This document shows, piece after piece, positions 17,441 through 40,056 of a DNA stretch of 45,219 nucleotides. A program made the translations under genes and the position numbers. The notes below the pieces were generated by a model. The model ran no database searches. It was not told where the DNA came from and worked only from the letters and a program-made list of their open reading frames with translations. The stretch is from Thermodesulfobacteriota bacterium. GTDB taxonomy: Bacteria > Desulfobacterota_D > UBA1144 > Nemesobacterales > CSP1-2. Where the stretch lies: NCBI GenBank assembly GCA_036397855.1, contig DASWID010000112.1, positions 1 to 45,219 on the forward strand, written 5' to 3'. The first letter of the stretch is position 1. Each line of letters begins with the position of its first letter.

Positions 17441-19441
17441 CTAAACTTCTGCCGTCCTGTCCTTTGATCCTATACTATATTCGACAAGCACTTCCTGTTC
17501 CTTTTTGCTCGGAGTCGGCCACATAATAACGATTGCCCCTAAGAGTAGAACCACTCCGCCAGCCCAGATCCACGACACCATTGGATTTATTAAAACCCTG
17601 AAACTAGCGCTACCATCTTGAAAATTTGAAAGTATTACATAGAGGTCATGTGTAAATGAAGAGAGAATTGCAACCTCAGTTTCTTGATTAATCTCACGAT
17701 TTCCGGAGTACTTATACAGATTTTTTTCAGGAGCCATTGCTCCGATCTTTCTTTCGCCATCAAATACCGAGAGGCTAGCGGCTGTCCCATGTTTCGCATC
17801 TGTCGTATACTGGTTGAGATCATCGAATCTCAGAGTAAAATCACCAACGCTCATAGATTCCCCTGTTTTCAGTGTTGCCTCTTTCTGCTTCACAAAAACA
17901 GATGAGCCAGTTATCCCAATCACTACCAAAACAACCCCAAGGTGGACTATGTAGCCACCATATCTCCTACGGTTTTTGGATATCAGTCTCCCGAAGGCGC
18001 GCAAATAATTTTCCCCTCTCCTAACTCGAACTCTTATCCCCCTGTAGTATTCGACAAACACGGTCGCAGTCACATACGCGCATAGACCGAAAGAAATAAG
18101 CGCATAAATGTGTCTCATTCCGAAAAGCAATAAGATTACAGATGTCAGAACTCCGATTGCCACTGGAAATGTGAAATTTCTTATTAAATTATCTTTTGAG
18201 GCTTTTCTCCAAGAAATTAACGGACCAACTCCCATCAAAAATATCAATACTAAGCCGATCGGAACATTCACTCTATTAAAATACGGCGGACCAACAAGAA
18301 TCTTGTCCCTTGTGACGAGTTCGGATATGATTGGGAAAATTGTTCCTAGGAATACGGTAAAAGCGGCACCCAGAAAAAGAAGGTTATTAAATATGAAAGC
18401 GCTCTCTCTTGATATAATAGAGTCGAAATGATTATCGCTTTTAAGATCATCTAATCTAAGAGTGAACATGGCAAATGAGAAAATAAGTATGAAACCTATA
18501 AAACCTAGAAAATAGGGACCAATGTCTGACTGGGCAAATGAATGAACCGAGGAAATTATCCCGCTTCTGGTAACAAAGGTCCCAAATATTGCCAGGAAAA
18601 AGGTAAGTATTATCAGCGACAAATTCCACTTTTTAAGCATTCCCCTTTTTTCTTGAATCATTACCGAGTGAACAAAGGCTGTACCGACAAGCCATGGCAT
18701 AAATGCGGCATTCTCCACGGGATCCCATGCCCAATAACCACCCCAACCGAGCTCCAAGTAAGCCCACCTTGCGCCCAACAACAGACCCAGGCCTAAGAAT
18801 GTCCATGCCAGCAGTGCCCATTTTCTAGATTGTCTTATCCACTCGTCATCCAACTTGCCGCTCAGAAGAGCACCCATCCCAAATGCAAAAGGTACCGTGA
18901 CTCCGACATAACCAAGGTATAAAGTGAGAGGATGAATGGCCATATAGGCATTCTGCAGAATGGGGTTTAGCCCCCTTCCCTCTTCGGCTACAAAGGGTAG
19001 TTTTTCAAAAGGACTCTCAACAAAGGCTATAAGAAAGATGAAGAAGGTCGAAACAGCAGCGAGTGTTGCGAGGACATATGGTGTGAATCTGCTTCGTCTC
19101 CTGTTCTGAATCACCACAAGGGATGAATATACTGAGAGTATCAGGCACCAAAGAAGCAGGGATCCAGCCTGGCCCGCCCACAACGCGGTTATCCTGTAAA
19201 TAGTAGAGAGATCACTACTGGCATTTAAGGCGACATATTTAAGGCTGAAATCTAGATTCAGGAGAGCATGTATCAGTGAGACGGCTCCTATGGTTAGAAG
19301 AAAACAGACCGCAAGCGACCCGTTCTCGGCACTTTTGATTAAATCGTCCCTTTTGGTTTTAGCTCCAATTACGGAGGCAACTATGACGTAGACAGAGAGT
19401 ATAAAAGCTAAAAAAATTGATATATTACCGGTTTCAACCAT
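17441..19441 (-). CDS. ccmF: Cytochrome c heme lyase CcmF
   Basis: 666 residues, a polytopic membrane protein of the heme-handling protein family. The tryptophan-rich WWD motif reads WGGYWAWDPVENAAFMPW. Conserved features nearby include NPILQNAYMAIHPLTLYLGY, with a likely heme-ligand His, and FVTRSGIISSVHSFA, with a second. CcmF receives heme from holo-CcmE and attaches it to CXXCH apocytochromes in the periplasm. The gene follows ccmE by one base. The length is in the normal range. Confidence 0.93.
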   Translation of the reverse strand: MVETGNISIFLAFILSVYVIVASVIGAKTKRDDLIKSAENGSLAVCFLLTIGAVSLIHALLNLDFSLKYVALNASSDLSTIYRITALWAGQAGSLLLWCLILSVYSSLVVIQNRRRSRFTPYVLATLAAVSTFFIFLIAFVESPFEKLPFVAEEGRGLNPILQNAYMAIHPLTLYLGYVGVTVPFAFGMGALLSGKLDDEWIRQSRKWALLAWTFLGLGLLLGARWAYLELGWGGYWAWDPVENAAFMPWLVGTAFVHSVMIQEKRGMLKKWNLSLIILTFFLAIFGTFVTRSGIISSVHSFAQSDIGPYFLGFIGFILIFSFAMFTLRLDDLKSDNHFDSIISRESAFIFNNLLFLGAAFTVFLGTIFPIISELVTRDKILVGPPYFNRVNVPIGLVLIFLMGVGPLISWRKASKDNLIRNFTFPVAIGVLTSVILLLFGMRHIYALISFGLCAYVTATVFVEYYRGIRVRVRRGENYLRAFGRLISKNRRRYGGYIVHLGVVLVVIGITGSSVFVKQKEATLKTGESMSVGDFTLRFDDLNQYTTDAKHGTAASLSVFDGERKIGAMAPEKNLYKYSGNREINQETEVAILSSFTHDLYVILSNFQDGSASFRVLINPMVSWIWAGGVVLLLGAIVIMWPTPSKKEQEVLVEYSIGSKDRTAEV

Positions 19442-19442
19442 T

Positions 19443-19856
19443 TTATATATTTTTAGACCCTTTTAAGGAATCTGTGGATTCATACTTGGTGGGACATTTG
19501 GCCAACAATAAACTAGCCACAAATACGTTATCCGGTGTATATAGACCTTCGACGACCGCTTCGACGCCATCTTTAAATATATCCGGCACTATTCCCTTAT
19601 ATTTTACATCCAGCGTTTCTTCGCCGTCCGCAATCTTAAACTCGAGGCTTCCATCAATCTCATTCCTTATAGATCCCGGAACAACTTTTCCCGAGACCCT
19701 TACTTTTTCCTTATACACTGAAGGTACCCTATCCTTCAATTCCTGAACGGTAAGATAGTAGATCATCGTATCACTGACACCACCGTAAACGAGGTACGCT
19801 ATAGCAACGGCGATTACAGTGATTGCTACAATGAATTTTGTCTTTCCTTTTAGCAT
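19443..19856 (-). CDS. ccmE: Heme chaperone CcmE, Cys-type (CXXXY) variant
   Basis: 137 residues from the ATG at 19856 (a TTG one codon upstream is possible). An N-terminal anchor at about 8-27 is followed by the OB-fold domain (VRVSGKVVPGSI, DVKYKGIVPDIFKDGVEAVVEG). In canonical CcmE the heme is bound covalently by His in an HxxxY motif. Here the motif is CPTKY, with Cys121 and Tyr125, the CxxxY form known from archaea and some Desulfovibrio-type bacteria. The AGGAAG site upstream is appropriate. The protein carries heme between CcmC and CcmF. Confidence 0.9.
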   Translation of the reverse strand: MLKGKTKFIVAITVIAVAIAYLVYGGVSDTMIYYLTVQELKDRVPSVYKEKVRVSGKVVPGSIRNEIDGSLEFKIADGEETLDVKYKGIVPDIFKDGVEAVVEGLYTPDNVFVASLLLAKCPTKYESTDSLKGSKNI

Positions 19857-19886
19857 CAATTATTCTTCCTCACTGCAATAAATAAG

Positions 19887-20030
19887 CTATTGACTTTCTT
19901 CATTTGAATTCAGAGAAGACTCTATAGACTCTAACTGATTTTTCAAGTTATGATTTTTTCTAATAAGATAATAGATATATATCAAAAGCACAATCCAAAA
20001 AATTATTTGCGACCAGAAAAGATAAGACAT
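19887..20030 (-). CDS. ccmD: CcmD-like small membrane protein (47 aa)
   Basis: 47 residues from the ATG at 20030, 3 bp after the ccmC stop. It has one membrane helix (FWSQIIFWIVLLIYIYYLI) followed by a charged cytoplasmic helix (RKNHNLKNQLESIESSL). This size, topology and position between ccmC and ccmE are diagnostic of CcmD, which helps release holo-CcmE from the CcmC complex. CcmD has little sequence conservation, so the call leans on context. Confidence 0.78.
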   Translation of the reverse strand: MSYLFWSQIIFWIVLLIYIYYLIRKNHNLKNQLESIESSLNSNEESQ

Positions 20031-20033
20031 CTG

Positions 20034-20693
20034 CTATTTTGCCTCCATTAATTTAAGCCTTAGGATATTATCTTTCATAATTTCTAGTTCTACCCTATTC
20101 TTAAGTATCAAGATAAACAAAAGGGTAAAAGCTACTAGCGTAACCATCAATGCGACCATCATCTCTGATGCAATACCGCCCCCACGGGATCCAAATACAA
20201 CCGGGGAGATTCCACGCATAACCCTCGCCGAAATGTAAACAAGGGGTAAGTCTAAAAACGCTATGATTCCAAAAACAGCGGCAAATTTTGCTTTCCTCAC
20301 ATCGTTCCCCGCGGATGAACGCAGTATCATGTAAACAACGTAGAGAATCCAAAGAATAAATGTAGTAGTGAGTTGCGGATCCCAAGTCCACCACGTGCCC
20401 CAGATGGGTTTGGCCCAAATACTACCCGATACTATCGTAAGTGTAATAAAAACCACCCCTATTTCGGCAGCAGAATAAGCCAGAATATCCCAGTTGCGAC
20501 TCTCTTTTCTCAGATACTGAATGCTTGCAACAAATACGATTACAAATGAAATCGTGGCGACCCAAACGGTTCCCATATGGAAATAAAAAATTTTTTGGAT
20601 CGGTCCCATAATCCTCTCAGTCGGCGCGTAAATAAATGAAGCATAGAGCGAACCAATCATTGATATAAAAGTCAGAGCTAAAAGAAGATTCAT
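20034..20693 (-). CDS. ccmC: Heme exporter / heme-handling protein CcmC
   Basis: About 219 residues with six membrane helices and the WWD heme motif WGTWWTWDPQLTTTFILW. Flanking conserved histidines include one in IFYFHMGTVWVA. CcmC attaches heme to CcmE. I prefer ATG at 20693 (MNLLLAL); a TTG at 20708 would add five residues. It is the first clearly recognisable gene of the ccm operon; ccmA and ccmB, which normally precede it, are not found here. Confidence 0.92.
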   Translation of the reverse strand: MNLLLALTFISMIGSLYASFIYAPTERIMGPIQKIFYFHMGTVWVATISFVIVFVASIQYLRKESRNWDILAYSAAEIGVVFITLTIVSGSIWAKPIWGTWWTWDPQLTTTFILWILYVVYMILRSSAGNDVRKAKFAAVFGIIAFLDLPLVYISARVMRGISPVVFGSRGGGIASEMMVALMVTLVAFTLLFILILKNRVELEIMKDNILRLKLMEAK

Positions 20694-20734
20694 GATTAAC
20701 CCGAGCAAAATCTATTTTATTTAAACTTTTCCTA

Positions 20735-25564: not shown

Positions 25565-26047
25565 GTGAAAAGGAAATATTACTGGATTATTGGAATAATT
25601 TTGGGTGTGATTGTCATAATTCTAGCAGCATCCTATACCAGGATAATAACTGGGAGTACTAAAACACTTGGGGAAAACAAAATTAATTTTTATGATCCTC
25701 ATTTGCAAGCAAAGGAATTCATAACTTATAACTCCATGGCTTTAACCCCGGCACAGGAAAAGATAAAGAATGAGGCTCTATCAACTATTCCTGCCCCATG
25801 TTGTAGTGATTATTCTATATCAACTTGTTGCTGTCCATGCAATCTCGCTAAGAGTGTTTGGGGACTATCAAACTTCTTAATAGCAGAACTTAATTATAGC
25901 AATGAGGAAGTGAAAAGTGCCGTATTGGAATGGATTCACCTTACTAACAAAGATGGATACGCTGGTAATGCATGCCATAGGGGAAGGTGTAACTTACCGT
26001 TTAAAGAAGATGGTTGTGGTGGCATGGACGAAAGAAGATTTTTCTAA
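25565..26047 (+). CDS. Membrane-anchored cysteine-rich protein (160 aa)
   Basis: GTG start at 25565 with AGGGGG at 25551-25556. A single N-terminal membrane helix (about 5-25, IIGIILGVIVIILAASY) anchors a periplasmic domain with a dense cysteine cluster: PAPCCSDYS, STCCCPCNLAKSVWGLSNF, then CHRGRCNLPF and DGCGGMDERRF. There are about ten cysteines in 80 residues. The CCPCN-x-WGL pattern and the DGCGGM ending recur in uncharacterised periplasmic proteins of related bacteria, as I recall, but no function is established. It lies between the feo operon and the cytochrome operon, so metal binding or trafficking is a plausible but unproven role. Confidence 0.65.
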   Translation: MKRKYYWIIGIILGVIVIILAASYTRIITGSTKTLGENKINFYDPHLQAKEFITYNSMALTPAQEKIKNEALSTIPAPCCSDYSISTCCCPCNLAKSVWGLSNFLIAELNYSNEEVKSAVLEWIHLTNKDGYAGNACHRGRCNLPFKEDGCGGMDERRFF

Positions 26048-26228
26048 TCGACAAAGGGGCTGTAGTATACCGCATAACAGTGCACGAAATTGAAATGTTA
26101 CAAAGGTGATTAAGGGTAAGAAGATAATAAGATAAAGGATAACAGGAACATAAATATGGAACAGATCAAATTATGGAAGGTCTTACCGATAGAGCAGCTC
26201 TTTTTGAAAGCTTGAGAAGGGGTTAGGA

Positions 26229-26978
26229 ATGCCCCAACAGATAAAATATCTTCTCGCCCTTTCTATTGTCTTGATTTTCATTTTCCTAATTGTCCGCCAT
26301 TTTCTTATGCCCGCAAGTTTTGGGAAATACGGTCATTATCGTGCCGATTCATTACAATCCGCGGTCTCCAGGGAAATTAAGTATGCCGGGGAAACTGCAT
26401 GCACCGAATGCCATGATGATATTTACATTTTAAAAGACAAATCATATCATAGGGGGGTTGCCTGTGAAGTATGCCATGGGCCTGCCTATGCCCATACCCA
26501 GGACCCGTATGAGTACAAACCCCCGGCACCAAGAAAACGCGCCTATTGTCCATTGTGTCATGGATACAATCCGACAAGACCCACAGGATTCCCACAGATT
26601 GACCCTGTAAGGCATAATCCCGGTAAGCCTTGTATTTTCTGCCATAACCCCCATGATCCGGTTCCTCCTGTTACGCCCGCGGAATGCGATCCATGCCACA
26701 CGCAAATTGCTCGAACTAAAATTGTATCACCCCACGCACTCCTAGCCTGTACTCGATGCCACGAAGCGAAGGAAGAGCATAAATTAAATCCAAGGATGGC
26801 CTTGCCGGATAAACCGAGGAATAGAGAATTCTGTGGAGAGTGCCACGCACAGGAAGCAGAAAGTTCCCCTGAAATTCCGCGTGTCGACATTAAAACTCAT
26901 GGCAATGGTTTTTTGTGCTGGGAGTGTCACTATCCCCATTATCCTGAAGCGCGCACAAAGGAGGATGAGAAGCAATGA
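26229..26978 (+). CDS. Membrane-anchored octaheme cytochrome c
   Basis: 249 residues. An N-terminal membrane helix at about 6-24 is followed by a periplasmic domain with eight CXXCH motifs (CTECH, CEVCH, CPLCH, CIFCH, CDPCH, CTRCH, CGECH, CWECH). Numerous extra histidines offer bis-His ligation. It is the first gene of an operon with an Fe-S protein and an NrfD-type membrane subunit, and overlaps the next gene by ATGA (26975-26978). In such modules (Nrf, Cbc, Qrc, alternative complex III) the multiheme protein accepts electrons from the quinone-linked Fe-S/NrfD pair. The preferred direction here cannot be read from sequence. Confidence 0.85.
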   Translation: MPQQIKYLLALSIVLIFIFLIVRHFLMPASFGKYGHYRADSLQSAVSREIKYAGETACTECHDDIYILKDKSYHRGVACEVCHGPAYAHTQDPYEYKPPAPRKRAYCPLCHGYNPTRPTGFPQIDPVRHNPGKPCIFCHNPHDPVPPVTPAECDPCHTQIARTKIVSPHALLACTRCHEAKEEHKLNPRMALPDKPRNREFCGECHAQEAESSPEIPRVDIKTHGNGFLCWECHYPHYPEARTKEDEKQ

Positions 26979-27787
26979 ATGCTAAAGAGCTTCTTGACAA
27001 CGTAACAAATAGGAGGAACTTTCTTAAGAGCCTCCTCATAATCCCCTCCGGATTTTTTCTTGGCGGTCTTTTTTCTAAAATATTCCCCTTCTTGAAAAAG
27101 GCATCTCGCGAAAACACTTCAACATTGGAAAGTATTTATGGGAAATACAATCCCAAGGAGCACTACTATGCGATGGGTATTGACATCGATAAGTGCATAG
27201 GGTGTGGACGATGTGTAGAGGCGTGCAAGATTGAAAATAATGTTCCTCAGGAACCCTATTTCTTCAGAACCTGGGTGGAAAGATATACTATTACAGTCGA
27301 TGGGGAAACGAGTGTGGACAGTCCTGAAGGTGGGATGCACGGTTTTCCCGAACCCATTAGCGAAAAGGAAATCCTACGCACGTTTTTTGTTCCAAAGTTA
27401 TGTAATCAATGTAATAATCCACCCTGTGTGCAGGTCTGTCCTGTTGGAGCCACATACCAGTCAATAGACGGAGTTGTCCTTGTTGATAAAGACTACTGTA
27501 TCGGATGTCGTTACTGCATTCAGGCCTGTCCTTATGGAGCGAGATATCTCAATCCCGAGACAAAGACGGCGGACAAATGCACATTTTGTTATCACAGAAT
27601 CGTAAAGGGATTGCAGCCTGCGTGCGTAGAGGTATGTCCCACTGGAGCAAGAACTTTTGGAGAAGTAAAACCACGCAACAATCCCCTTGCGCGTTTTGTC
27701 CGATTCAACAATATTGGTGTCTTAAAGCCCTATCTTAATACAGAACCCAAGGTCTACTATGCTAATCTAGACAAGGAGGTTACTTAG
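26975..27787 (+). CDS. NrfC-like periplasmic 4x[4Fe-4S] ferredoxin subunit
   Basis: 270 residues. The N-terminal NRRNFLKSLLIIPSGFFLG resembles a Tat signal (RRxFLK), implying export with clusters already inserted. Four cysteine clusters follow the DMSO reductase B / NrfC pattern: CIGCGRCVEACK, CNQCNNPPCVQVCPVGA, CIGCRYCIQACPYGA, and CTFCYHRIVKGLQPACVEVCPTGA. The third Cys group in the fourth cluster has the usual long spacing. It is predicted to pass electrons between the NrfD-type subunit and the octaheme cytochrome. Confidence 0.9.
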   Translation: MNAKELLDNVTNRRNFLKSLLIIPSGFFLGGLFSKIFPFLKKASRENTSTLESIYGKYNPKEHYYAMGIDIDKCIGCGRCVEACKIENNVPQEPYFFRTWVERYTITVDGETSVDSPEGGMHGFPEPISEKEILRTFFVPKLCNQCNNPPCVQVCPVGATYQSIDGVVLVDKDYCIGCRYCIQACPYGARYLNPETKTADKCTFCYHRIVKGLQPACVEVCPTGARTFGEVKPRNNPLARFVRFNNIGVLKPYLNTEPKVYYANLDKEVT

Positions 27788-28990
27788 TTGGATCCCTTAC
27801 TTGAGCGACTTGCCATTAGCCTTAAAGAAATTACAGGCTTCATCTATCCCAACGAGATTGAACTCCATTGGAGTATCCTGATTGTGGTTTATCCCTATCT
27901 TACTGGTCTTGTAGCAGGTGCTTTTATTCTGGCTTCCCTGGAAAGGGTTTTTAATGTTAAAGAAGTGGAGCCTACTTACCGACTTTCCCTTCTCACTGCC
28001 CTTGCTTTCCTCATTGTCGCCCCTCTTCCCCTTGTGGCTCATCTGGGACATCCTGAACGAGCCTATGAAATTTTTCTCACACCCAATTTCAGGTCTGCCA
28101 TGGCTATGTTTGGTTTTGTCTACGGCTGGTATCTCTTGGTTGTCCTTCTCGTGGAATTGTGGTTTGAGTACAGAAAGGATATCGTTGTCTGGTCTATGAA
28201 AGAAAAGGGGTTGAAAAGATTTATTTATCTCATCTTAACCCTTGGGGCTTCAGACCTCTCAGAAAGATCTCTTCAGTTTGACAGAAAGGCGGCAAAATTT
28301 ATAACCATCATCGGTATTCCATCCGCTTTCCTCCTTCATGGTTATGTGGGTTTTATCTTCGGCTCTGTGAAGGCGAATCCCTGGTGGAGCAGTGTGCTTA
28401 TGCCCGTAGTTTTTTTGTTTTCCGCTATAGTATCGGGGATCGCGCTTGTGATGTTACTCTATATGGTTATTACTCTCTTTCGCCGGAAAAATGTAGAAAT
28501 GACCTGTATGGATAAGCTTGCTTCCTTTTTGCTCTATGCAATGATACTGGATTTCTCACTCGAAAACCTTGACTTCATTCACCGCATTTACGAATCAGAA
28601 GAATCCATAAAAATACTGTACCAGCTTTTAATCAGTAAGCTATTCATCAGTATGGTCGTGATTCAGATGCTGCTAGGAACTATAATTCCAATGGTTTTAT
28701 TGGCATGGACAAAGTTGACACGCCTTCCTGATGAGTTAAGGCGTCTTATCTACTTTGGAAGTGCGATTCTTACCCTGATAGGAATTTTTAGTATAAGATG
28801 GAATGTGGTTATCGGGGGGCAATTATTTTCCAAGAGTTTAAGAGGACTTACAACCTACAAAATGGAATTGCTCGGAATTGAAGGGCTCTTGGTGGCGTTA
28901 TTCTTTCTGGCGCTCCCATTTATTATTCTGTACATCCTCGTTGCTCTGTTGCCGCCATGGAAGGAAGCAGAGGTTAAACTTGAAACGTAG
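27788..28990 (+). CDS. NrfD/PsrC-family quinone-interacting membrane subunit
   Basis: 400 residues, TTG start with AAGGAGG 6-8 bases upstream (about 27774-27780). About 9-10 hydrophobic helices; the first (YPYLTGLVAGAFILASLERVF) and the following LPLVAHLGHPERAYEIFLTP carry the NrfD/PsrC-family pattern. NrfD subunits lack cofactors and bind quinone near the periplasmic side. With the Fe-S gene directly upstream this makes a complete quinol:acceptor module (octaheme-FeS-NrfD). Confidence 0.88.
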   Translation: MDPLLERLAISLKEITGFIYPNEIELHWSILIVVYPYLTGLVAGAFILASLERVFNVKEVEPTYRLSLLTALAFLIVAPLPLVAHLGHPERAYEIFLTPNFRSAMAMFGFVYGWYLLVVLLVELWFEYRKDIVVWSMKEKGLKRFIYLILTLGASDLSERSLQFDRKAAKFITIIGIPSAFLLHGYVGFIFGSVKANPWWSSVLMPVVFLFSAIVSGIALVMLLYMVITLFRRKNVEMTCMDKLASFLLYAMILDFSLENLDFIHRIYESEESIKILYQLLISKLFISMVVIQMLLGTIIPMVLLAWTKLTRLPDELRRLIYFGSAILTLIGIFSIRWNVVIGGQLFSKSLRGLTTYKMELLGIEGLLVALFFLALPFIILYILVALLPPWKEAEVKLET

Positions 28991-29059
28991 ATGTTTTTAA
29001 GTTAGGGGTTATAGGAAGCTAGAAATATATCTGAAAAATGTGACTTAAAAATTCGTTTG

Positions 29060-29074
29060 ATTTCGTAACGAAAT
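29060..29074. promoter_or_regulatory. 15-bp palindrome upstream of the 11-heme cytochrome gene
   Basis: ATTTCGTAACGAAAT is a perfect dyad (7-1-7) in the 174-bp gap before 29165, so it could be an operator for the downstream genes. The binding protein is unknown, and the same sequence was not noticed at the other cytochrome promoters. Confidence 0.3.
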
Positions 29075-29164
29075 GAAAGGATTCAGGCCAAAAAACATGT
29101 ATAACCTTCCCACAGATCTTGGTTTGATGGTCAAAGATACCGGTGGCACCAAGCTATTGGCTGT

Positions 29165-31204
29165 ATGTTAAAGAAAAGGCAACATGTGATACAAGTTATG
29201 CGATCAAATGAGTCATTGTTTTTTTTAACTCTTTTCTTTTTAATTTTTTGTCCCTTCACAGTTACTTCCCATTCTGATGAGTTTAAGAGTGAAGACTGTC
29301 TGATGTGCCACGAAACGATGGAACCATTGGTTGATAAAGGACTCTTAGATGCCTCAATTCATAGTGGCTTTGAGTGCACAGATTGTCATCAGGATGTAAC
29401 AGAAATACCCCACGAAGAAGTCCCGGGGAAGGTTGATTGCTCTTCATGTCACCCACAGATCGCAAAAGAGTATTCCGAAAGTATACATGGTGAAGCAATA
29501 GCGAGGGGTGATAATGATGCCCCAAAATGTACGAGTTGTCACGGCTCCCACGGCATCCTCCCAAAAGAAGACCCAGCATCACCTATAAACCCATTGAACG
29601 TTCCTGAGACCTGTTCGAAGTGCCATACAAGCGAAAAGATTACAAAGGAACACCCTCTTCCGTCACCGGAATTTATTGAGAGTTACACTGAAAGCGTTCA
29701 CGGCCGTGGCGTCTTTGTCAGCGGTTTAATTGTCTCGGCGGTTTGTTCTGACTGCCATGGTGCACATAATATAAGGCCCAAAAGTGACAAAAACTCCAGT
29801 GTCTATAGAGGGAATATACCGCTTACTTGCAAGAAGTGTCATCTTGGAATTTATGATAATTTTGAGAGAAGCTTACATGGAAAGCTCTGGAAAGATGGAG
29901 AAGAAAGAGGACCTGTTTGCACGACCTGTCACACGTCCCACGAAATCAAGGAGCCTCGTTCAACTGGATTCCGCCTGCAAATTTCTGAGGAATGTAGTGG
30001 ATGCCATGGGGCTAGAGCCCTTACTTATCAGGACACATTTCACGGGCAGGCAACCTCTCTAGGGTTTGTCGAGGTCGCAAAGTGCTCGGACTGCCACACG
30101 GCCCATCTCATTCTCCCTGCGAATGACCCTTTTTCCTCTATCGCATCTGGGAATCTTACCAAAACCTGTGGGAGATGTCACACTGAAATAAGTGAAAAGT
30201 TTGTCAGCTACGACCCACATGCTGATCCCGGCGATAAGGATAGGTCCCCTTTTCTTTATTACATATATACCTTGATGAATTGGCTTCTCATTTCAGTTTT
30301 TGGCCTTTTCGGATTACATATGGTTCTTTGGCTTCAGCGCTCAGCTGTAGCGGTGGCCAGGGGAGAGGTTCCTACCCGCTGGAGCAGCGGCAAATATGTC
30401 CTCCGGTTCCCCCTTCCCCACAGGATTACCCATGTTACTCTTGTCATAAGCTTCCTGGGACTTGCTGCGACAGGACTACCGCTTATGTACAATTACACGG
30501 ACTGGGGAAGAATCCTCGAAGGAATACTCGGTGGAGTAGAAGTTACAAGGTACTTCCACAGAGTGTTTGCAATCATAACACTGGGTTACGTTAGCTTTCA
30601 TCTCGGTTATATGTTAGACAAGATATTTTTAAAGGGCAACTTAAGCCTTCTCTATGGTCCTAATTCCATTATTCCTAGAAGGGAAGACCTAGTTGATCTC
30701 TATCGGAACGTGCGGTGGTTCTTATACCTAGGTCCTCGTCCGAGACTGGACAGATGGACCTATTGGGAGAAGTTCGATTATTTTGCGGTCTTCTGGGGAA
30801 TACCAGTAATAGGCGTCTCTGGACTTATGCTCTGGCTGCCAGAGATCTTTACAAAATTTCTTCCTGGTTATTTTCTAAATGTGGCAATGGTGATCCACGG
30901 AGAGGAGGCCCTTCTTGCTGTTGGATTCATATTCACATTCCATTTCTTCCATACCCATCTGCGTCCGGAGAGCTTTCCATTAGACACTACCATCTTCACT
31001 GGCAAAATACCTCTGGAAAGATTTATTGAGGAAAGGCCCGTAGAATACGATAGGCTGTTAAGAGAAGGAAAGCTCGACAATATAATTGTTGAACCACCAT
31101 CGCAACTTGCTAATACGCTTTCGAAATGGTTCGGGTTTGCTGCACTGGGTGTGGGATTGGCATTGATCGTTGCGATTTTTGCTACCTTTCTTTCTAATGT
31201 TTAA
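29165..31204 (+). CDS. Undecaheme cytochrome c fused to cytochrome b561-type membrane domain
   Basis: 679 residues. A signal or anchor lies at about 17-37. A periplasmic part with eleven CXXCH motifs follows: CLMCH, CTDCH, CSSCH, CTSCH, CSKCH, CSDCH, CKKCH, CTTCH, CSGCH, CSDCH, CGRCH. Most lie in repeats of the form S-(I/V/L)-H-G...C-x-x-C-H-x-x-H. From about residue 365 a four-helix cytochrome b domain follows (PHRITHVTLVISF, YFHRVFAIITLGYVSFHLGY, VIHGEEALLAVGF, FHFFHTHLRPE) with candidate b-heme histidines. The architecture resembles Geobacter CbcL (multiheme c plus b-type), a quinol oxidase feeding outward electron transfer. An in-frame ATG at 29198 could be the true start. Confidence 0.85.
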   Translation: MLKKRQHVIQVMRSNESLFFLTLFFLIFCPFTVTSHSDEFKSEDCLMCHETMEPLVDKGLLDASIHSGFECTDCHQDVTEIPHEEVPGKVDCSSCHPQIAKEYSESIHGEAIARGDNDAPKCTSCHGSHGILPKEDPASPINPLNVPETCSKCHTSEKITKEHPLPSPEFIESYTESVHGRGVFVSGLIVSAVCSDCHGAHNIRPKSDKNSSVYRGNIPLTCKKCHLGIYDNFERSLHGKLWKDGEERGPVCTTCHTSHEIKEPRSTGFRLQISEECSGCHGARALTYQDTFHGQATSLGFVEVAKCSDCHTAHLILPANDPFSSIASGNLTKTCGRCHTEISEKFVSYDPHADPGDKDRSPFLYYIYTLMNWLLISVFGLFGLHMVLWLQRSAVAVARGEVPTRWSSGKYVLRFPLPHRITHVTLVISFLGLAATGLPLMYNYTDWGRILEGILGGVEVTRYFHRVFAIITLGYVSFHLGYMLDKIFLKGNLSLLYGPNSIIPRREDLVDLYRNVRWFLYLGPRPRLDRWTYWEKFDYFAVFWGIPVIGVSGLMLWLPEIFTKFLPGYFLNVAMVIHGEEALLAVGFIFTFHFFHTHLRPESFPLDTTIFTGKIPLERFIEERPVEYDRLLREGKLDNIIVEPPSQLANTLSKWFGFAALGVGLALIVAIFATFLSNV

Positions 31205-31374
31205 AATGAACCAAACAGACGACGTGATCCACGAGTTATCTCTGTTGCTTTTACGCAAAATAGTGATTAACTACAAATACAAAGTACGATTTTTCAAAAT
31301 AAGTACGGACCGATAACGGAGGCAATGTTTGACGAAATTATCCAGAGATTTTAAATTCCCAGGGAGGTACTTGC

Positions 31375-32883
31375 ATGAGATTGCCTAGGATTGTCCACAA
31401 TTGGTTAAGCTACGCCGGTGCGGCTATATCGGCTTTGTCGCTAATTGTTTTTATCTTCTTATTTGCCCTTCACTCAATTGTTGATACCTCAGAAGTACCC
31501 TACGCCGGGCTGATCATCTTCGTATTAATACCGATGATTTTTGTTTTTGGTATGATCCTTATCCCGATTGGCATGCTCTTCGAGTGGCAACGTTTCAGAA
31601 ACACAGGTATAAGATCATTGCCGCGGTTCCCAATAATCGACCTGAATAACCCTCACCAAAGGAATGCGACATTAATCTTTTTTGTGGGTTCGATCCTACT
31701 GATAATTCTTGTCACCTTAAGCGGTTATAAAGCCTACCATGTTACTGATTCTGTGGCCTTCTGCGGCACACTTTGCCACAGTGTGATGCAACCGGAGTAC
31801 ACCGCTTATCAGAATTCGCCACATGCAAGGGTTCGCTGCGTTGACTGCCACGTAGGACCAGGGGCAGACTGGTTTGTAAAGTCTAAAATGTCAGGACTAT
31901 ACCAGGTTTATGCCGTTCTCTTAAACAAATACCCGAGGCCGATTCCAGTCCCAATCGAGAGCTTGCGCCCGGCACAGGAGACATGTGAGCAGTGCCACTG
32001 GCCTGAGCAGTTTTTTGGCGCTCAACAAAAAAGACTGCTTCATTTCTTGCCTGATGAGAATAATACTCGTTGGGATATTAATCTGCTAATCAGAACCGGA
32101 GGGGGCAGCCCGGAGACGGGACTGACCGAAGGAATCCATTGGCACATGAACATTGGCAATAAATTAGAGTACATTGCCACTGATGAGACGCGACAGGAGA
32201 TTCCCTGGGTAAGAACGACGAATTTGGAAACTGGACACGTGACCGAATATATGTCAACCGAAAATCCACTTTCAGATGGAGAAATCGGCAGTGCAAATAT
32301 TCGTAAGATGGACTGCATGGATTGCCACAACCGACCCACGCACATTTTCCGTTCTCCTAGTTATTCGATGAATCTCGCTTTAGGTACTGGCAAGATTGAT
32401 CCTAACCTACCCTTTATAAAACAAACCGGGGTCAAACTGCTGTCTGGAAATTATGACTCCACGGAATCGGCGTTGAAGGAAATTGAGAATGGGGTCAAAA
32501 AATTCTATCAAGACAACCATTCTGAGTTGACGAATCACAAAGAAGATTCGATTTCTGGCGCTATAGTGGAGATCCAGGACATTTATCAGAACAACTTTTT
32601 CCCTGATATAATGAAGGTGCGGTGGGACGTCTACCCGAATAACATCGGCCACCTGAATTTCCCCGGCTGCTATCGCTGCCATGATGGACTTCATAAGAGT
32701 GCTGATGGAAAGGTGATCACGAATAAGTGTACTGCCTGCCATACTATTATATCGCAGGGAACGCCAGAGAATATGGAGTATTCAATGGAACCGGATGGGC
32801 TTGCATTTCGGCATCCCGAGGATATCGGAGAGATGTGGAAGGAGATAAAGTGTAGCGACTGCCACACCGGCGGACTGCCATGA
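31375..32883 (+). CDS. NapC/NirT-like heptaheme cytochrome c with membrane anchors
   Basis: 502 residues. GGGAGG lies ahead of the ATG. Two to three N-terminal helices are followed by a NapC/NirT-type segment. The first heme motif is unusual, CGTLCH (CxxxCH), in AFCGTLCHSVMQPEYTAY, with the nearby Met and downstream His typical of this family. Six CXXCH sites follow (CVDCH, CEQCH, CMDCH, CYRCH, CTACH, CSDCH). Similar long NapC/NirT relatives in Geobacter-type genomes share the C-x3-CH first motif. It probably oxidises quinol and passes electrons to periplasmic cytochromes. It is the last plus-strand gene before the convergence point. Confidence 0.85.
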   Translation: MRLPRIVHNWLSYAGAAISALSLIVFIFLFALHSIVDTSEVPYAGLIIFVLIPMIFVFGMILIPIGMLFEWQRFRNTGIRSLPRFPIIDLNNPHQRNATLIFFVGSILLIILVTLSGYKAYHVTDSVAFCGTLCHSVMQPEYTAYQNSPHARVRCVDCHVGPGADWFVKSKMSGLYQVYAVLLNKYPRPIPVPIESLRPAQETCEQCHWPEQFFGAQQKRLLHFLPDENNTRWDINLLIRTGGGSPETGLTEGIHWHMNIGNKLEYIATDETRQEIPWVRTTNLETGHVTEYMSTENPLSDGEIGSANIRKMDCMDCHNRPTHIFRSPSYSMNLALGTGKIDPNLPFIKQTGVKLLSGNYDSTESALKEIENGVKKFYQDNHSELTNHKEDSISGAIVEIQDIYQNNFFPDIMKVRWDVYPNNIGHLNFPGCYRCHDGLHKSADGKVITNKCTACHTIISQGTPENMEYSMEPDGLAFRHPEDIGEMWKEIKCSDCHTGGLP

Positions 32884-32953: not shown

Positions 32954-33598
32954 TTAGGGCTTTACCTCTATTAATCCCTTTCGAATGGCAAATTTTATGA
33001 GTTCGGTTCGGCTGTGAATATTAAGCTTTTCCATTATGTGTGTTCTATGGCCCATCACAGTTTTAACACTCATGTAAAGCATATCAGCAATCTCATTGTT
33101 CTTATAGCCCTCTGCGACGAGCTTTAGCACCTGTTTTTCTCTATTAGTGAGGTTTTCGTAAAGGTCCTCCTCAATGTCTTTATCCCTTGTTTGCAGGTAC
33201 CCCTCTATCACGGCAGGAGCTACATCGGGATACAAAAATGAGCTGCCTCTATTCACTGCCTGGATGGCGGATATAAGCTCTGTACTCGTTGCTTTTTTAA
33301 GAACATAGCCAGAAGCACCCGCTTTTAAGAACCTGTATATGTACTCTTTATTATCATACTGGGTAAGGACGATTATTTTTGTCTGGGGACAGGCATTTCG
33401 TATCTCCAGCGTAGCTTCGAGCCCTCCCAGTCCAGGCATAGCTATGTCCATTAGCACCACATCTGGCTTGAGCTTTCGGGTCTTTTCTATAGCTTCCCCA
33501 CCATCGGTGGCATCGCCTACGACCTCAATGTCTCCGCAACTCTCAAGAAGTGCCTTTATGCCTTCACGTATAAGGGCGTGGTCATCGGCGATAAGCAC
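32954..33598 (-). CDS. NarL/FixJ-type response regulator
   Basis: 214 residues. The receiver domain has the phosphorylation Asp in PDVVLMDIAMPG and acidic residues in IADDH. The C-terminal LuxR-type HTH reads NLTNREKQVLKLVAEGYKNN then EIADMLYMSVKTVMGHR. It is the partner of the histidine kinase encoded directly upstream. The GTG at 33598 gives a protein starting MLIADDH, slightly short. A GGGAGG at 33628-33623 is better spaced for an in-frame ATC at 33613, which would start MSNIKVLIADDH, the usual family N-terminus. Confidence 0.92.
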   Translation of the reverse strand: MLIADDHALIREGIKALLESCGDIEVVGDATDGGEAIEKTRKLKPDVVLMDIAMPGLGGLEATLEIRNACPQTKIIVLTQYDNKEYIYRFLKAGASGYVLKKATSTELISAIQAVNRGSSFLYPDVAPAVIEGYLQTRDKDIEEDLYENLTNREKQVLKLVAEGYKNNEIADMLYMSVKTVMGHRTHIMEKLNIHSRTELIKFAIRKGLIEVKP

Positions 33599-33614: not shown

Positions 33615-35471
33615 TTAACTCACCTCCCTCAATGGAACCGTAACTACAACCCTTGTCCCAGATCCGGGTTGTGACTGTACTTCAAGCTTTCCATCAAGAA
33701 GTAAGACCCTTTCCTTCATTCCGAGAAGTCCGAGCCCCCGGCTACCCGCCTTTGTACTTGATATACTCTCTAAATCAAATCCATTGCCATCATCTTCTAT
33801 CTCTAATGTAATGAGGCTATCTTCGAGTTCCAGATTAATAATAACATTTTCAGCTTGAGAGTGCTTGGCTATATTCGTTATAGCCTCTTGAGCAACTCTA
33901 AATAGCACAGTTTCGATCTGGGTTTGAAACCTTTTTTCAAACAGATTCCCCTCGTAGCGGAAATTAATGCCCAAGGGCTTGAGGCGTTCTTCTGCATACC
34001 ACTTTATAGCAGCAGAAAGCCCGAGGTCATCAAGAATAGCAGGACGGAGGTCAAAAATCATGCGGTGCGTGCTATCTATAGCACGAAGTGCAAGTTTCCT
34101 TGCATTATCTATTTTCACTTCAAGCAACTTAGGTGCACTCGCCTCTCTTATTGCTTCGAGGGAAATAAGCATTGCAGCAAGAGTTTGGCTCATTTCATCG
34201 TGTAACTCCCTTGCAATCCTCTTCCGTTCTTCTTCTTGGGCTGAGATTATCCTACGGAGGAGTTCTCCTCGCTTCTCCTCCTTCTTCCTGAGTTCCTCAT
34301 ACAGGGAAAAGGTTTCTTTTGTTCTCTCATCCACCCTTCTCTCAAGTTCTCCTGTCCACGCAGCGATTTCATCCAGGGAATTCTTGAGCTTAATCCTCAT
34401 TTCATCCAGGGTTTTCCCAAGTTGCCCGATTTCATCATCTCCGGATATAGAAATAGGCTCAAAGAGATTGCCAGAAGCAATTCTCCGGGCAGACATTGTT
34501 AAAGATTTAACTGGTGCAATAACGCTCTGAGCTACCCCTAGGGTTAAAATTAGAGCGACTACAAACAATACGGCGCCAAACGTAAAAAAGCGTCTTTTCA
34601 TGCTTTCCACGGGAGCAAGGGCTTCACTCTCAGCCTGTCTAATATCAATTCCCCAAGGGATGTCTGAGAGAGGAGCAAAAGCCATGATCTCTTTTTTTGG
34701 CTTACCCGTTATCCCCTCCTCGTGGCAACTGTGGCATGTGCCTACGCTGGACCGCCCTGTCTTGATAAGTCCTGAAAGGAATCCGCCATGGTCGCTTTCA
34801 GTTAAGATGTTTCCCGACTTGGTAGAGGCTAAAACAAACCCGTTTCCATCTATAATTTCGATATACCCTGTCTCCCCAATCTTTACTGGCCGGATAACCC
34901 TAGGCAATGCAGCTCCGGTAGGATCAACTTCCCCTCCTACGAGACCCAAAGTTCTTCCATTCTTAACTATAGGGATCAGAGCGAATACCGCCTTTTTTGC
35001 TTGAGGCCTTATCTCAAACAAATTAGAAACGATAGGCTTCCCTGTAAGAATAGACTCTCTAACAGGGGAAAAATCCCCGAAGTTTGCTTCGGCGAGAGCA
35101 GGACGAGGCGGTTCTATCCACAAGATATGCCCTTTGCTGTCAAGCAAAAACACATTGGCGAAAATGGACCGCAATAATGCATTATGAAGAGCGGCTTTTT
35201 CCGGTCCCAGGTCTTCGTCTGCCAGATTGACGCCCTTGGAGAAAGCAACGTCTTGAAGATACATAAGATTCTGCCTGATTAAATCCTCGAGATTGCTCGC
35301 AACCGTTTGGGCAAGCACGAGCCGCTCTCGAAGCATTTGGTTGACACTGTCACGCATATTGAGAAAATCTGAGACACCGAGTATTACTAGTATGGTCAGC
35401 ATACCAGAGGCACTGAGTAAGATTATTCTCCTTCGCAAGCTGGGTCTTTCAAAAAAGGATTTTAAGCCCAT
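33615..35471 (-). CDS. Sensor histidine kinase with c-type heme motif in its periplasmic domain
   Basis: 618 residues from the ATG at 35471 (one base after the upstream stop; a further in-frame ATG at 35513 would overlap that gene). The order is TM1 about 15-35, a large Cache-like periplasmic sensor with TCHSCHEE (CXXCH at 246-250), TM2 about 296-316, HAMP, coiled coil, HisKA_3 with phospho-accepting His424 (ARELHDEMSQT), and HATPase_c (AITNIAKHSQA, DDGNGFD, GLGLLGMKERV). The kinase core is NarX/UhpB-like and matches the LuxR-type regulator next to it. The CXXCH would covalently bind heme through the Ccm system, making this a probable redox or gas sensor. Confidence 0.92.
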   Translation of the reverse strand: MGLKSFFERPSLRRRIILLSASGMLTILVILGVSDFLNMRDSVNQMLRERLVLAQTVASNLEDLIRQNLMYLQDVAFSKGVNLADEDLGPEKAALHNALLRSIFANVFLLDSKGHILWIEPPRPALAEANFGDFSPVRESILTGKPIVSNLFEIRPQAKKAVFALIPIVKNGRTLGLVGGEVDPTGAALPRVIRPVKIGETGYIEIIDGNGFVLASTKSGNILTESDHGGFLSGLIKTGRSSVGTCHSCHEEGITGKPKKEIMAFAPLSDIPWGIDIRQAESEALAPVESMKRRFFTFGAVLFVVALILTLGVAQSVIAPVKSLTMSARRIASGNLFEPISISGDDEIGQLGKTLDEMRIKLKNSLDEIAAWTGELERRVDERTKETFSLYEELRKKEEKRGELLRRIISAQEEERKRIARELHDEMSQTLAAMLISLEAIREASAPKLLEVKIDNARKLALRAIDSTHRMIFDLRPAILDDLGLSAAIKWYAEERLKPLGINFRYEGNLFEKRFQTQIETVLFRVAQEAITNIAKHSQAENVIINLELEDSLITLEIEDDGNGFDLESISSTKAGSRGLGLLGMKERVLLLDGKLEVQSQPGSGTRVVVTVPLREVS

Positions 35472-35472
35472 C

Positions 35473-36033
35473 TCAATGGTGAATGCTCCTTGCGATTTTA
35501 AGTAAATCCTCAACGGACCCGTTAGATATTAAAACCATCTTTCTATCCCCTTCTTTCCAACTTAGCTGGATCCACTGGTTTCCATTTTCTCCCACACCGA
35601 TTTTTAGTGTGCCTTTCGCTCCACCGACCGAGATTTGAGTCTCTCCGGAATGCCTTTTAGGTTCCACAAAATCAAATCCCACACCTTTGCTTTCATCTTT
35701 ATTTGAAATAATTTGGTGAATTACTAAGCTAGGGCTACCATGTACTTGTGAAAGGAATACCAGTGTTATGATAAGGGAGGGCTTTCTTACCACCTTGATT
35801 TCTTTAGGCGGCCAGATGAGATAATCTGGGAAGTATGATGGAAGAAAAATTCTTAATCCAAGTGAATATTCAGCTTCTTCTACGCTACTGTAAAATTTCT
35901 GTTCGCTTTCCTGTATATATGCGGGGACTTTTTTCAAAACGTATAGTGATATCAATACCACACACATCAAGATAGTGATAGATAACACTATTTTCGACAT
36001 TTCTCTTAAAAAGTAAGTAGCTTTTCGAGTCAT
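35473..36033 (-). CDS. Membrane-anchored DUF4367-like protein
   Basis: 186 residues. One N-terminal membrane helix (about 14-33) is followed by an extracytoplasmic domain: FLPSYFPDYLIWPPKEIKVV near its start, GGAKGTLKIGVGENGNQWIQ LSW in the middle, and a final SVEDLLKIARSI helix. The last two match the WxxxG...L-x-K-I-A-x-S-I pattern of DUF4367 domains. DUF4367 proteins often accompany regulatory membrane proteins, but the function is unknown. Encoded one base before the sensor kinase and 48 bp after the M56-type peptidase, so it may modulate either. Confidence 0.65.
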   Translation of the reverse strand: MTRKATYFLREMSKIVLSITILMCVVLISLYVLKKVPAYIQESEQKFYSSVEEAEYSLGLRIFLPSYFPDYLIWPPKEIKVVRKPSLIITLVFLSQVHGSPSLVIHQIISNKDESKGVGFDFVEPKRHSGETQISVGGAKGTLKIGVGENGNQWIQLSWKEGDRKMVLISNGSVEDLLKIARSIHH

Positions 36034-36081
36034 AGCTTTAGGCCGTTTGCCTTATTTCAAATTGTGAGAGCATTTTAACGC

Positions 36082-37098
36082 TCATACGACAAAGAATAGG
36101 AGCAAAATTAGCGAAAGAGCTGTTATTCCGAGTCGGATATTTGGATACGGAGGATTATAGATATTCTTTGGACGTACCATCCTTGTTACTCTGTTCTCGA
36201 TTCGTACCCTGTGCGAATGACTCTCAAGATTATGAACTATTGATAAGATTCTACCTCTCAAGCCAGACTTTGATATTTGAGAAAACCTATCTGCCTTACC
36301 CATCCGAAAAATTTTTACTAAGCTTGAAGCGATAGCAAGCGGCTTCCCGGTAAACGTTGAAGCAAGATCATCGCAGAGCGTCTCTCGTTCATTTATGATT
36401 CTTCGAAACTCGATAAGGACAATCGGATTATAAAACATGACAAATCGTAAAAGAAACATTACCCAACCTGTGGCGTTATCCCTTCTCAAAATATGACCCA
36501 TCTCATGGGCAAGCACCCCTTGAAGCTCTTCAAGGTCGAGAGCTTCTATGAGAGAATAGGAGATGTTGATGGAACCTTTCGTTAGCCCTTTTGCATATAT
36601 TGTAGGCTCTTTCCCATTTAATAGAAAAATCCTTGGTACGGCCATGGGTAACCTTTGCTCCAAATCTCTTATGACTCCATCAAGTTTAGGGATTGTACCA
36701 CTCTTATAAAGGGTCTTATCCTCCTCGCCAGCATAGTGATGAAGTAGTGTCGGAATAGCTTCTTGTACAAGAAAAATGACAGTTACAACTCCCAATAGGG
36801 CAATAGCTAAATGCCAAACCAAAATGCCATCACCCAATCTTAAAAGTAGCCATTGGTTTATATCGAAGATAGCCATGTCTTCACGAAACTCCAAGCTTCC
36901 GCGATGAGGATAGATCAATTGATACAGGGGGAAAGATAAAACCGGAATCAGTATTACAAGACTACGAAACCTGATTTGTAGAAGCGGACGCTCTTCATGC
37001 CATATTTTTAATAATACTTCAATAACAAGGGCTATGATAAAAGAATGCAATACACACTGAAACACATATTGACTAAAACTAAATTCCAAAAGATCCAT
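36082..37098 (-). CDS. M56 (BlaR1-like) membrane zinc metallopeptidase
   Basis: 338 residues. Several hydrophobic segments lie in the N-terminal half, then the gluzincin zinc motif HEMGH at 198-202 (GVLAHEMGHILRRDN) and a downstream E-x-x-x-D (ERETLCDDLAS) that supplies the third ligand. This is the M56/M48 pattern as in BlaR1/MecR1, but no penicillin-binding sensor domain is present: after the peptidase only a short basic region and a final membrane helix follow. No BlaI-type repressor is adjacent. It is embedded in the cytochrome operon, so regulated proteolysis of a regulator or cytochrome assembly factor is a possible role. Confidence 0.8.
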   Translation of the reverse strand: MDLLEFSFSQYVFQCVLHSFIIALVIEVLLKIWHEERPLLQIRFRSLVILIPVLSFPLYQLIYPHRGSLEFREDMAIFDINQWLLLRLGDGILVWHLAIALLGVVTVIFLVQEAIPTLLHHYAGEEDKTLYKSGTIPKLDGVIRDLEQRLPMAVPRIFLLNGKEPTIYAKGLTKGSINISYSLIEALDLEELQGVLAHEMGHILRRDNATGWVMFLLRFVMFYNPIVLIEFRRIINERETLCDDLASTFTGKPLAIASSLVKIFRMGKADRFSQISKSGLRGRILSIVHNLESHSHRVRIENRVTRMVRPKNIYNPPYPNIRLGITALSLILLLFFVV

Positions 37099-37161: not shown

Positions 37162-37968
37162 TTATACATTATCCCCTTTTTTGCCCCCGGCAAGTTTTTT
37201 GTTCTCTTCATTCTTAGTCCAAGATTTAATAAGCTCTGCGTATTCTAAAGGGTGATCTTTTTCCATTCTCTCTCGTGAAATCTTTCCAGTGAAAATACTT
37301 GGGTCGAATGGAAATACATCGGGATTAAAATGTGCTCCATACATATGCCAGATAATTATGACGAGAAAGGCAAGCAGAGCTTCATAGCCGTGGACAGTTT
37401 CCGCCGCGGGTATGATTACCCCGGGTAAGAATTTTGTAAAAAAGATTGGAAAGTAGAGGACAAAGCCTGAAACGATCATAAAAATCCCACCGATTACAAG
37501 TCCCCAATATTCAAACTTTTGCCTAAAATCATAGCGACCGAATTTAGGGTGCTCCTCGGAAAGCCCCATGTAGTATTTGAGCATTCCTACGGCATCGTTG
37601 AAATCTTTGAATGTTGGAACTATTGAAGGTCTTACCTTTCTCAAAAGAACAAATAGAGTAATGCGACCCAAATGCCAAACAACCAGTGCAGCAAACAGAA
37701 TACCAAACATGCGGTGGATAAAACGAGTCATGTCAATACCCCCAAGCCTCGTTATAATCCATGCTGACCAGGAGGCTTCAAAAAATTCCTGAGGGAGCCC
37801 TGTAATTACGAGTATGATAAAAAAAATCATAACTAGAAGGTGCTCTATCCTTTGAAGGGGATTAAATCTTACAAACTTATCTGGAAGACGCGTTCCTCGC
37901 GGCATAACTTCATTTTTGGAATTTTTACCTTCTTCAAGATTTATCTCATCCCTCATTCTATTATCCAT
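37162..37968 (-). CDS. Cytochrome b561-type membrane subunit
   Basis: 268 residues with four membrane helices. Candidate b-heme histidines are in RIEHLLVMIFF, RFIHRMFGILFAALVVWHLG, VHGYEALLAF and IIWHMYGAHFNPD. FTKFLPG and PFDPSIFTGKISRERM are nearly shared with the C-terminal domain of the 679-residue fused protein at 29165-31204, so the two are paralogues. It is encoded 16 bp after the nonaheme cytochrome gene and is probably its quinone-reactive membrane partner. Confidence 0.85.
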   Translation of the reverse strand: MDNRMRDEINLEEGKNSKNEVMPRGTRLPDKFVRFNPLQRIEHLLVMIFFIILVITGLPQEFFEASWSAWIITRLGGIDMTRFIHRMFGILFAALVVWHLGRITLFVLLRKVRPSIVPTFKDFNDAVGMLKYYMGLSEEHPKFGRYDFRQKFEYWGLVIGGIFMIVSGFVLYFPIFFTKFLPGVIIPAAETVHGYEALLAFLVIIIWHMYGAHFNPDVFPFDPSIFTGKISRERMEKDHPLEYAELIKSWTKNEENKKLAGGKKGDNV

Positions 37969-39094: not shown

Positions 39095-39556
39095 TTAACT
39101 TTTATTCGCCTCTTCGCGCTTCTTTGCGATTTCCTTTTCTAGTTCGCTGAGAAGGTCGGGAGCCCTGGGTTTTTTCTCTTCTTTTAGACCCTCCTGAAAC
39201 TGTTGCCTTTCGCCCCTTTCAGATCGTCTTCGCCACGTGAGGTAGGCCACCCCGGGTATCCAATGCAGAGTAGCTTCTCTCAGCAGGCTCTCCCCTAGCA
39301 ACCGCAATCCCAGTAGCGCTTTGCTAGCCATGAGACCCAAAACCATCGCAAACGAGATAAACGGCAAGAAGATCACGTACATTAGCCCCATAATTGGTCC
39401 CAACACAATCATGGCTATGGGCTGTATGTTGACGTACCGTTCGTCACTTGCGCCCGGTAAAGGGTCGCTTTCATTCTCTATAGTGACAAAATCCCTTCGC
39501 TTGAGACTGAGATAAATTCCCTTCTTTACGACTTCATTACCAAAGTACCTTTTCAT
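39095..39556 (-). CDS. Conserved-looking membrane protein of unknown function (153 aa)
   Basis: 153 residues. GGGGG lies 8-12 bases ahead of the ATG. The N-terminal ~45 residues are hydrophilic (KRYFGNEVVKKGIYLSLKRR, then PLPGASDERYVN), followed by two hydrophobic segments (IAMIVLGPIMGLMYVIFLPF, then ISFAMVLGLMASKALLG), WIPGVAYLTW, and a long charged coiled-coil tail. As I recall, similar proteins recur beside multiheme cytochrome genes in metal-reducing bacteria, but no function is known. It is encoded 39 bp before the nonaheme cytochrome. Confidence 0.6.
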   Translation of the reverse strand: MKRYFGNEVVKKGIYLSLKRRDFVTIENESDPLPGASDERYVNIQPIAMIVLGPIMGLMYVIFLPFISFAMVLGLMASKALLGLRLLGESLLREATLHWIPGVAYLTWRRRSERGERQQFQEGLKEEKKPRAPDLLSELEKEIAKKREEANKS

Positions 39557-39720: not shown

Positions 39721-40056
39721 TTATTTAAGGCTCATCAGATAGGTCACAACGGCTTCGAGTTCCTCATCCGTACCCTTAAAAGGCGGCTGTTTTGTATCTG
39801 GAATGATGGATTTTGGGTCCTTTAGAAATCCCTTTATCCACTGAGCATCTTTCCTGCTACCTACACCTGAAAGGTCAGGGCCAATCTTCCCTCCAACACC
39901 ATCTATTTTGTGACACATGGGGCATTTCATCTCGTTGTATATCTTTTTTCCTGCCTCAACCTGAGCTCCCCCCTCCTGAGCAAAGCCACTAATCCCAAAG
40001 AATAAAACTGACACGATACCAATAGCCATATTTAAAAAGATGTTTCTATATATCAT
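39721..40056 (-). CDS. Monoheme class I cytochrome c
   Basis: 111 residues with a signal peptide (about 1-25, ending FAQEGGAQ). The cytochrome domain has CPMCH, IGPDLSGVG and the C-terminal helix ELEAVVTYLMSLK. In this family the distal axial ligand is the Met of a KMPPF-type loop; here the loop reads DTKQPPFKG, with Gln in that place. It is the first gene of the minus-strand cytochrome operon and could be the soluble shuttle between the cytochrome complexes and downstream acceptors. Confidence 0.88.
   Translation of the reverse strand: MIYRNIFLNMAIGIVSVLFFGISGFAQEGGAQVEAGKKIYNEMKCPMCHKIDGVGGKIGPDLSGVGSRKDAQWIKGFLKDPKSIIPDTKQPPFKGTDEELEAVVTYLMSLK

Follow-up and report, generated by a model that had tools for sequence, protein, structure and literature searches.

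A sensor histidine kinase with a putative heme c site in a double Cache domain, encoded beside a CbcBA-like cytochrome complex

The window, meaning the whole stretch of 45,219 nucleotides that was analysed, encodes a sensor histidine kinase (P0001) whose extracytoplasmic double Cache (dCache) domain contains the heme attachment motif CHSCH and whose gene lies in a cytochrome cassette. Its architecture, its motif and the conservation of that motif, its topology, its dCache fold and its gene linkage are established by sequence and structural models. The protein may be a periplasmic redox sensor kinase that bears heme c on the dCache CHSCH and controls a CbcAB-like complex, a proposal for which the chances of being right and of being wrong appear evenly balanced. 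Redox state is the most likely signal, with NO or CO less likely.

The kinase and its topology

Encoded on the minus strand, the gene starts with an ATG at 35471, ends at 33615 and specifies 618 amino acids. Pfam assigns dCache_1 to residues 43–275, HAMP to 313–363, HisKA_3 to 415–478 and HATPase_c to 521–615. The relevant features are as follows.

33615–35471, minus strand: sensor histidine kinase P0001, arranged as TM1, dCache with CHSCH, TM2, HAMP, HisKA_3 and HATPase_c
34647–35345, minus strand: dCache_1 domain, residues 43–275, from Pfam, AF2 and Foldseek
34722–34736, minus strand: CHSCH heme attachment motif, residues 246–250, positions counted from the ATG at 35471
34788–34790, minus strand: His228, candidate distal ligand
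17441–20708, minus strand: CcmF, CcmE and CcmC, System I cytochrome c maturation

An initial sequence-only reading had placed TCHSCHEE at residues 245–252, between two membrane helices. The position is exact, and hydropathy gives two helices that flank it, at residues ~14–36 and ~293–323. With RRR ahead of TM1 giving a basic N-terminus and HAMP located after TM2, residues ~37–292 should be extracytoplasmic; the motif is hence placed outside and not on the cytoplasmic side, the location that had been named as fatal to the idea. C246 and C249, both within the motif, are the sole cysteines of the protein, and only ~0.0013 CXXCH motifs would be expected by chance in 618 residues of the local composition. 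An exported CXXCH is normally hemylated by System I in a Ccm-bearing host, and the Ccm genes attributed to the organism are indeed found in the same window, with CcmC, CcmE and CcmF at 20708–17441.

The same reading described the protein as a NarX-like kinase, which is correct for the catalytic core (HisKA_3/HATPase_c) but not for the sensor. Like NarX and NarQ, the protein combines a HisKA_3 core with a NarL-family regulator, whereas on the sensor side it has a heme-motif dCache. It scores 93 bits against a cut-off of 578 in the NarX equivalog test, and a NarX-type nitrate sensor was rejected on account of the wrong sensor domain.

Fold and candidate heme site

An AF2 model of residues 28–298, built from 26 sequences, has a pLDDT of 90.9 and a pTM of 0.87, and its top Foldseek matches are PctA (E 5e-14) and other dCaches. 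The dCache_1 profile (PF02743) is matched by 21 of 21 members, P0001 itself falling just below the cut-off with 44.1 of 45 bits. In the model, CHSCH (model residues 219–223) lies at the end of a strand spanning 215–224, which is followed by strands 231–240 and 246–253 and then by TM2, so that the heme motif is predicted to sit in the β3–β4 hairpin of the membrane-proximal Cache module. Confidence is low at the motif itself (block mean 57) and the model contains no heme. His250 would be the proximal ligand and His228 perhaps the distal one. His228 is present in 19/19 CXXCH members and in 0/4 members with CXXCK; as proof of a distal ligand it is weakened by its occurrence in 19 of 28 relatives that have no motif.

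Distribution and conservation of the motif

Relatives were sought by searches with the domain only, since a contig scan with the whole protein returned mostly kinase halves, and the phylum labels given here are those of the genomes that served as search centres. Non-conservation of CXXCH among close orthologues, which had also been named as grounds for refutation, was not what was found. Another 18 sampled relatives, most of them with 28–45% identity, have the motif at the equivalent position; they come from Dadabacteria, Chloroflexota, Desulfobacterota and Acidobacteriota. With the window included, the alignment column is shared by 19/19 heme-type members, down to 28% identity. C246, C249, H250, H228 and a few structural residues are kept in all 19 sampled members, and His247 is replaced by Thr in both of those from Acidobacteriota. 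The kinase of the window's genome (G000) has an 80% identical orthologue in Ca. Dadabacteria CSP1-2, and the gene is sporadic, as the domain occurs in only 2 of the 58 searched genomes of the host phylum. Besides the two from Dadabacteria, CXXCH at that column was found in 6 of 400 genomes of Chloroflexota, some with several copies, in 3 of 395 of Desulfobacterota and in 2 of 297 of Acidobacteriota; the phylum of G059, with 399 genomes covered, yielded no CXXCH member.

Four more genomes, all from Desulfobacterota, encode sensors in which CHRCK replaces CXXCH: L192 (8972–9796, in G722), L193 (8945–9766, in G574), L194 (8861–9685, in G629) and L195 (9018–9839, in G701). Position 228 holds Gln or Arg instead of His in these, and an additional Cys, shared by all four, lies shortly before it. 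CXXCK is otherwise known as the motif of the active-site heme of NrfA. Linkage of the CXXCK subclade to NrfA was considered and dropped, because just two of the four genomes gave long NrfA matches.

Four Acidobacteriota members of the subclade have no motif. In L234 and L235 of Acidobacteriota the heme peptide is missing as a clean gap. In trees built with and without the motif columns the CXXCK members form one clade and the motif-less Acidobacteriota nest in a group containing heme-type members. This nesting suggests that the heme motif was lost in the motif-less Acidobacteriota; across the whole tree 5 to 6 motif changes are required. As the orthologues in this cassette include some without the motif, by loss, and some with CXXCK, the heme cannot be indispensable everywhere.

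The cytochrome cassette

The genes around the kinase are listed below.

32954–33598, minus strand: NarL/FixJ-type response regulator, 214 amino acids as listed from a GTG start
35473–36033, minus strand: weakly DUF4367-like protein, directly upstream of the kinase
36082–37098, minus strand: M56/M48-type membrane metallopeptidase, same cluster
37162–37968, minus strand: cytochrome b561/FdnI-like membrane subunit (CbcB-like), PF01292
37985–39055, minus strand: 9-heme cytochrome c with a C-terminal membrane helix (CbcA-like), PF09699
39095–39556, minus strand: 153-amino-acid protein without a Pfam match
39721–40056, minus strand: monoheme cytochrome c, first gene of the apparent minus-strand unit
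25565–32883, plus strand: converging cytochrome cluster of a Cys-rich protein, 8-heme c, FeS, NrfD, 11-heme c with cytochrome b, and NapC-like multiheme c

The cytochromes reported next to the kinase are thus present, and in the subclade of the window the association is fixed. Multiheme c, cytochrome b561, kinase and regulator follow one another in that order on one strand in 15/15 subclade members read, from four phyla (the window, G003, G197, G673, G696, G624, the four CXXCK genomes, G1012, G1114, G924, G967 and G1014; L237, also of the subclade, was left out). In the window the regulator begins 16 bp downstream of the kinase. Three of the motif-less Acidobacteriota sensors, L250, L251 and L255 (in G924, G967 and G1014), stand in cassettes of this same gene order. 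In Dadabacteria and the heme-type Acidobacteriota an M56 peptidase, in some with a DUF4367-like gene, lies between cytochrome b and kinase. The other group, mostly from Chloroflexota, has varying partners, with FeS and NrfD genes in some and no cytochrome nearby in others.

Homologues of the metallopeptidase and DUF4367-like proteins (35473–37098 in the window) recur near the cassette in Acidobacteriota and in the CXXCK genomes, and those of the 153-amino-acid protein (39095–39556) in Desulfobacterota and Acidobacteriota. The plus-strand cluster is headed by a small Cys-rich protein (25565–26047; PCCS...CCCPCN) without a Pfam match.

The PF01292 cytochrome b of the window adjoins the PF09699 multiheme c, the same pair as in Geobacter CbcB and CbcA (PMC7726332), where CbcBA is a low-potential menaquinol route (PMC12307469). 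The likeness to Geobacter CbcBA/Cbc5 (GSU0593, GSU0594), which has a PF01292 cytochrome b561 and a membrane-bound PF09699 multiheme protein, is drawn from this Pfam pair. Unlike the Geobacter system, the cassette of the window is completed by a dCache kinase and a NarL-type regulator, resembling, by analogy, a CbcBA quinol oxidoreductase with its own sensor.

Comparison with known heme sensors

No family of bacterial extracellular sensors is larger than that of the Cache domains. Signal proteins with c-type heme are already known as a class. For G. sulfurreducens the list of signal proteins that contain heme motifs runs to twelve. GSU0599, numbered close to cbc5, is a c-heme signal transducer like the window kinase but bears two motifs (PMC8396549). 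Covalent heme in Cache domains has been described only for the single Cache (PMC12889525); the literature searched, which misses most subscription papers, yielded no account of heme in a double one.

The known case, the recently described sCache_heme (DUF3365/Tll0287-like, PF11845; GSU0582, GSU0935, Tll0287), is likewise an extracytoplasmic Cache with one CXXCH that feeds a histidine kinase or chemoreceptor (PMC12889525). A conserved CXXCH is common to both families (19 members sampled in that of the window, with four others having CXXCK), but sCache_heme is a single Cache and its motif lies one hairpin later, on a helix flanked by the final two strands. In an AF2 model of a PF11845 domain (pLDDT 94.2) CXXCH occupies residues 151–155 on helix 149–158, between strand 136–146 and the last strand, 165–174. 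One strand therefore follows the motif there and two in the window kinase, and this difference in placement between the two models puts the heme sites in different hairpins. Alignment of PF11845 with the window's family by hhalign gives a probability of 3.8, no PF11845 match was obtained among the 21 members at E up to 5 and none was found in G000. Membership of PF11845 was thus rejected, there being no profile match and the motif lying between other strands.

The domain looks like a second heme c Cache, acquired independently of sCache_heme. A 'dCache_heme' in the full sense, with independent acquisition of heme in a different hairpin, a role as redox-potential sensor for a CbcAB-like complex in several phyla and a CXXCK variant that may hold a lysine-ligated heme, is tentative and slightly more apt to fail than to hold. 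A heme site elsewhere in a double Cache would show that the heme peptide was recruited more than once, and a sensor that accompanies a single electron-transfer complex across several phyla is a concrete candidate for periplasmic reading of redox potential. The cell may in this way read the redox state outside the membrane, which is relevant to bacteria with multiheme respiratory chains.

Proposed function and alternatives

The Ccm system would attach one covalent heme c to the CHSCH of the periplasmic dCache, and periplasmic cytochromes or the acceptor potential may set its redox state and so change its coordination. Such a change would shift the proximal module, which runs straight into TM2 and HAMP, and alter phosphorylation of the adjacent NarL-type regulator, which in turn would control the genes of the CbcAB-like quinol:cytochrome c oxidoreductase in the same cluster. 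Heme c sensor domains of Geobacter do respond to redox by switching spin state and axial ligand, their midpoints being -156 and -251 mV, and they also bind CO and NO (PMC8396549). The latter property is consistent with a gas sensor, in which NO (or CO or O2) binds the covalent heme, alters the kinase and adjusts electron flow in response to the effect of the gas on the respiratory chain. Tight NO binding, with a koff of ~6e-4 per s and no stable oxy complex, is known from a signalling sCache_heme protein (PMC12889525), and the host has genes of the heme-copper oxidase family. Gas sensing is nevertheless a distinctly weaker candidate, perhaps right in one case out of a few, as the heme site is not homologous to that of sCache_heme, the window's genome has no clear NrfA, and the constant partner is a quinol oxidoreductase rather than a gas-handling enzyme. 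It is this constant electron-transfer partner that favours redox over gas.

Several observations stand against the heme-redox model. In three cassettes of identical gene order the kinase has no CXXCH while the cytochromes are kept, so heme is not needed for the regulatory link to exist; in Chloroflexota, many members lack neighbouring cytochrome genes; His228 is common without the motif; AF2 confidence is low at the motif; and a footprinting comparison of the window with CSP1-2 for regulator sites gave no clear conserved palindrome. Cassettes without the heme peptide are consistent with a dCache that senses a small molecule in its distal module, the heme being structural or merely tuning the response. 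In PctA and similar dCaches the distal module binds amino acids, and PctA, PctB and PctC (dCache_1, PF02743), the best structural matches, have the same two-module fold, although these ligand binders have no heme motif. Such a role is improbable, the retention of the motif over long distances in most members being hard to explain without a function. Even more doubtful is a metal site or redox disulfide formed by the cysteines with no heme. It would suit the CXXCK subclade, where CHRC and one further invariant Cys are compatible with a thiol or metal site, but His250 is invariant in the 19 CXXCH members and System I normally hemylates an exported CXXCH in a host with Ccm.

A further histidine kinase of the same genome (L004, contig C171, ~6820–7740) has CANSSCH, a CX4CH motif, in its N-terminal extracytoplasmic part and is followed by an NtrC-type regulator.
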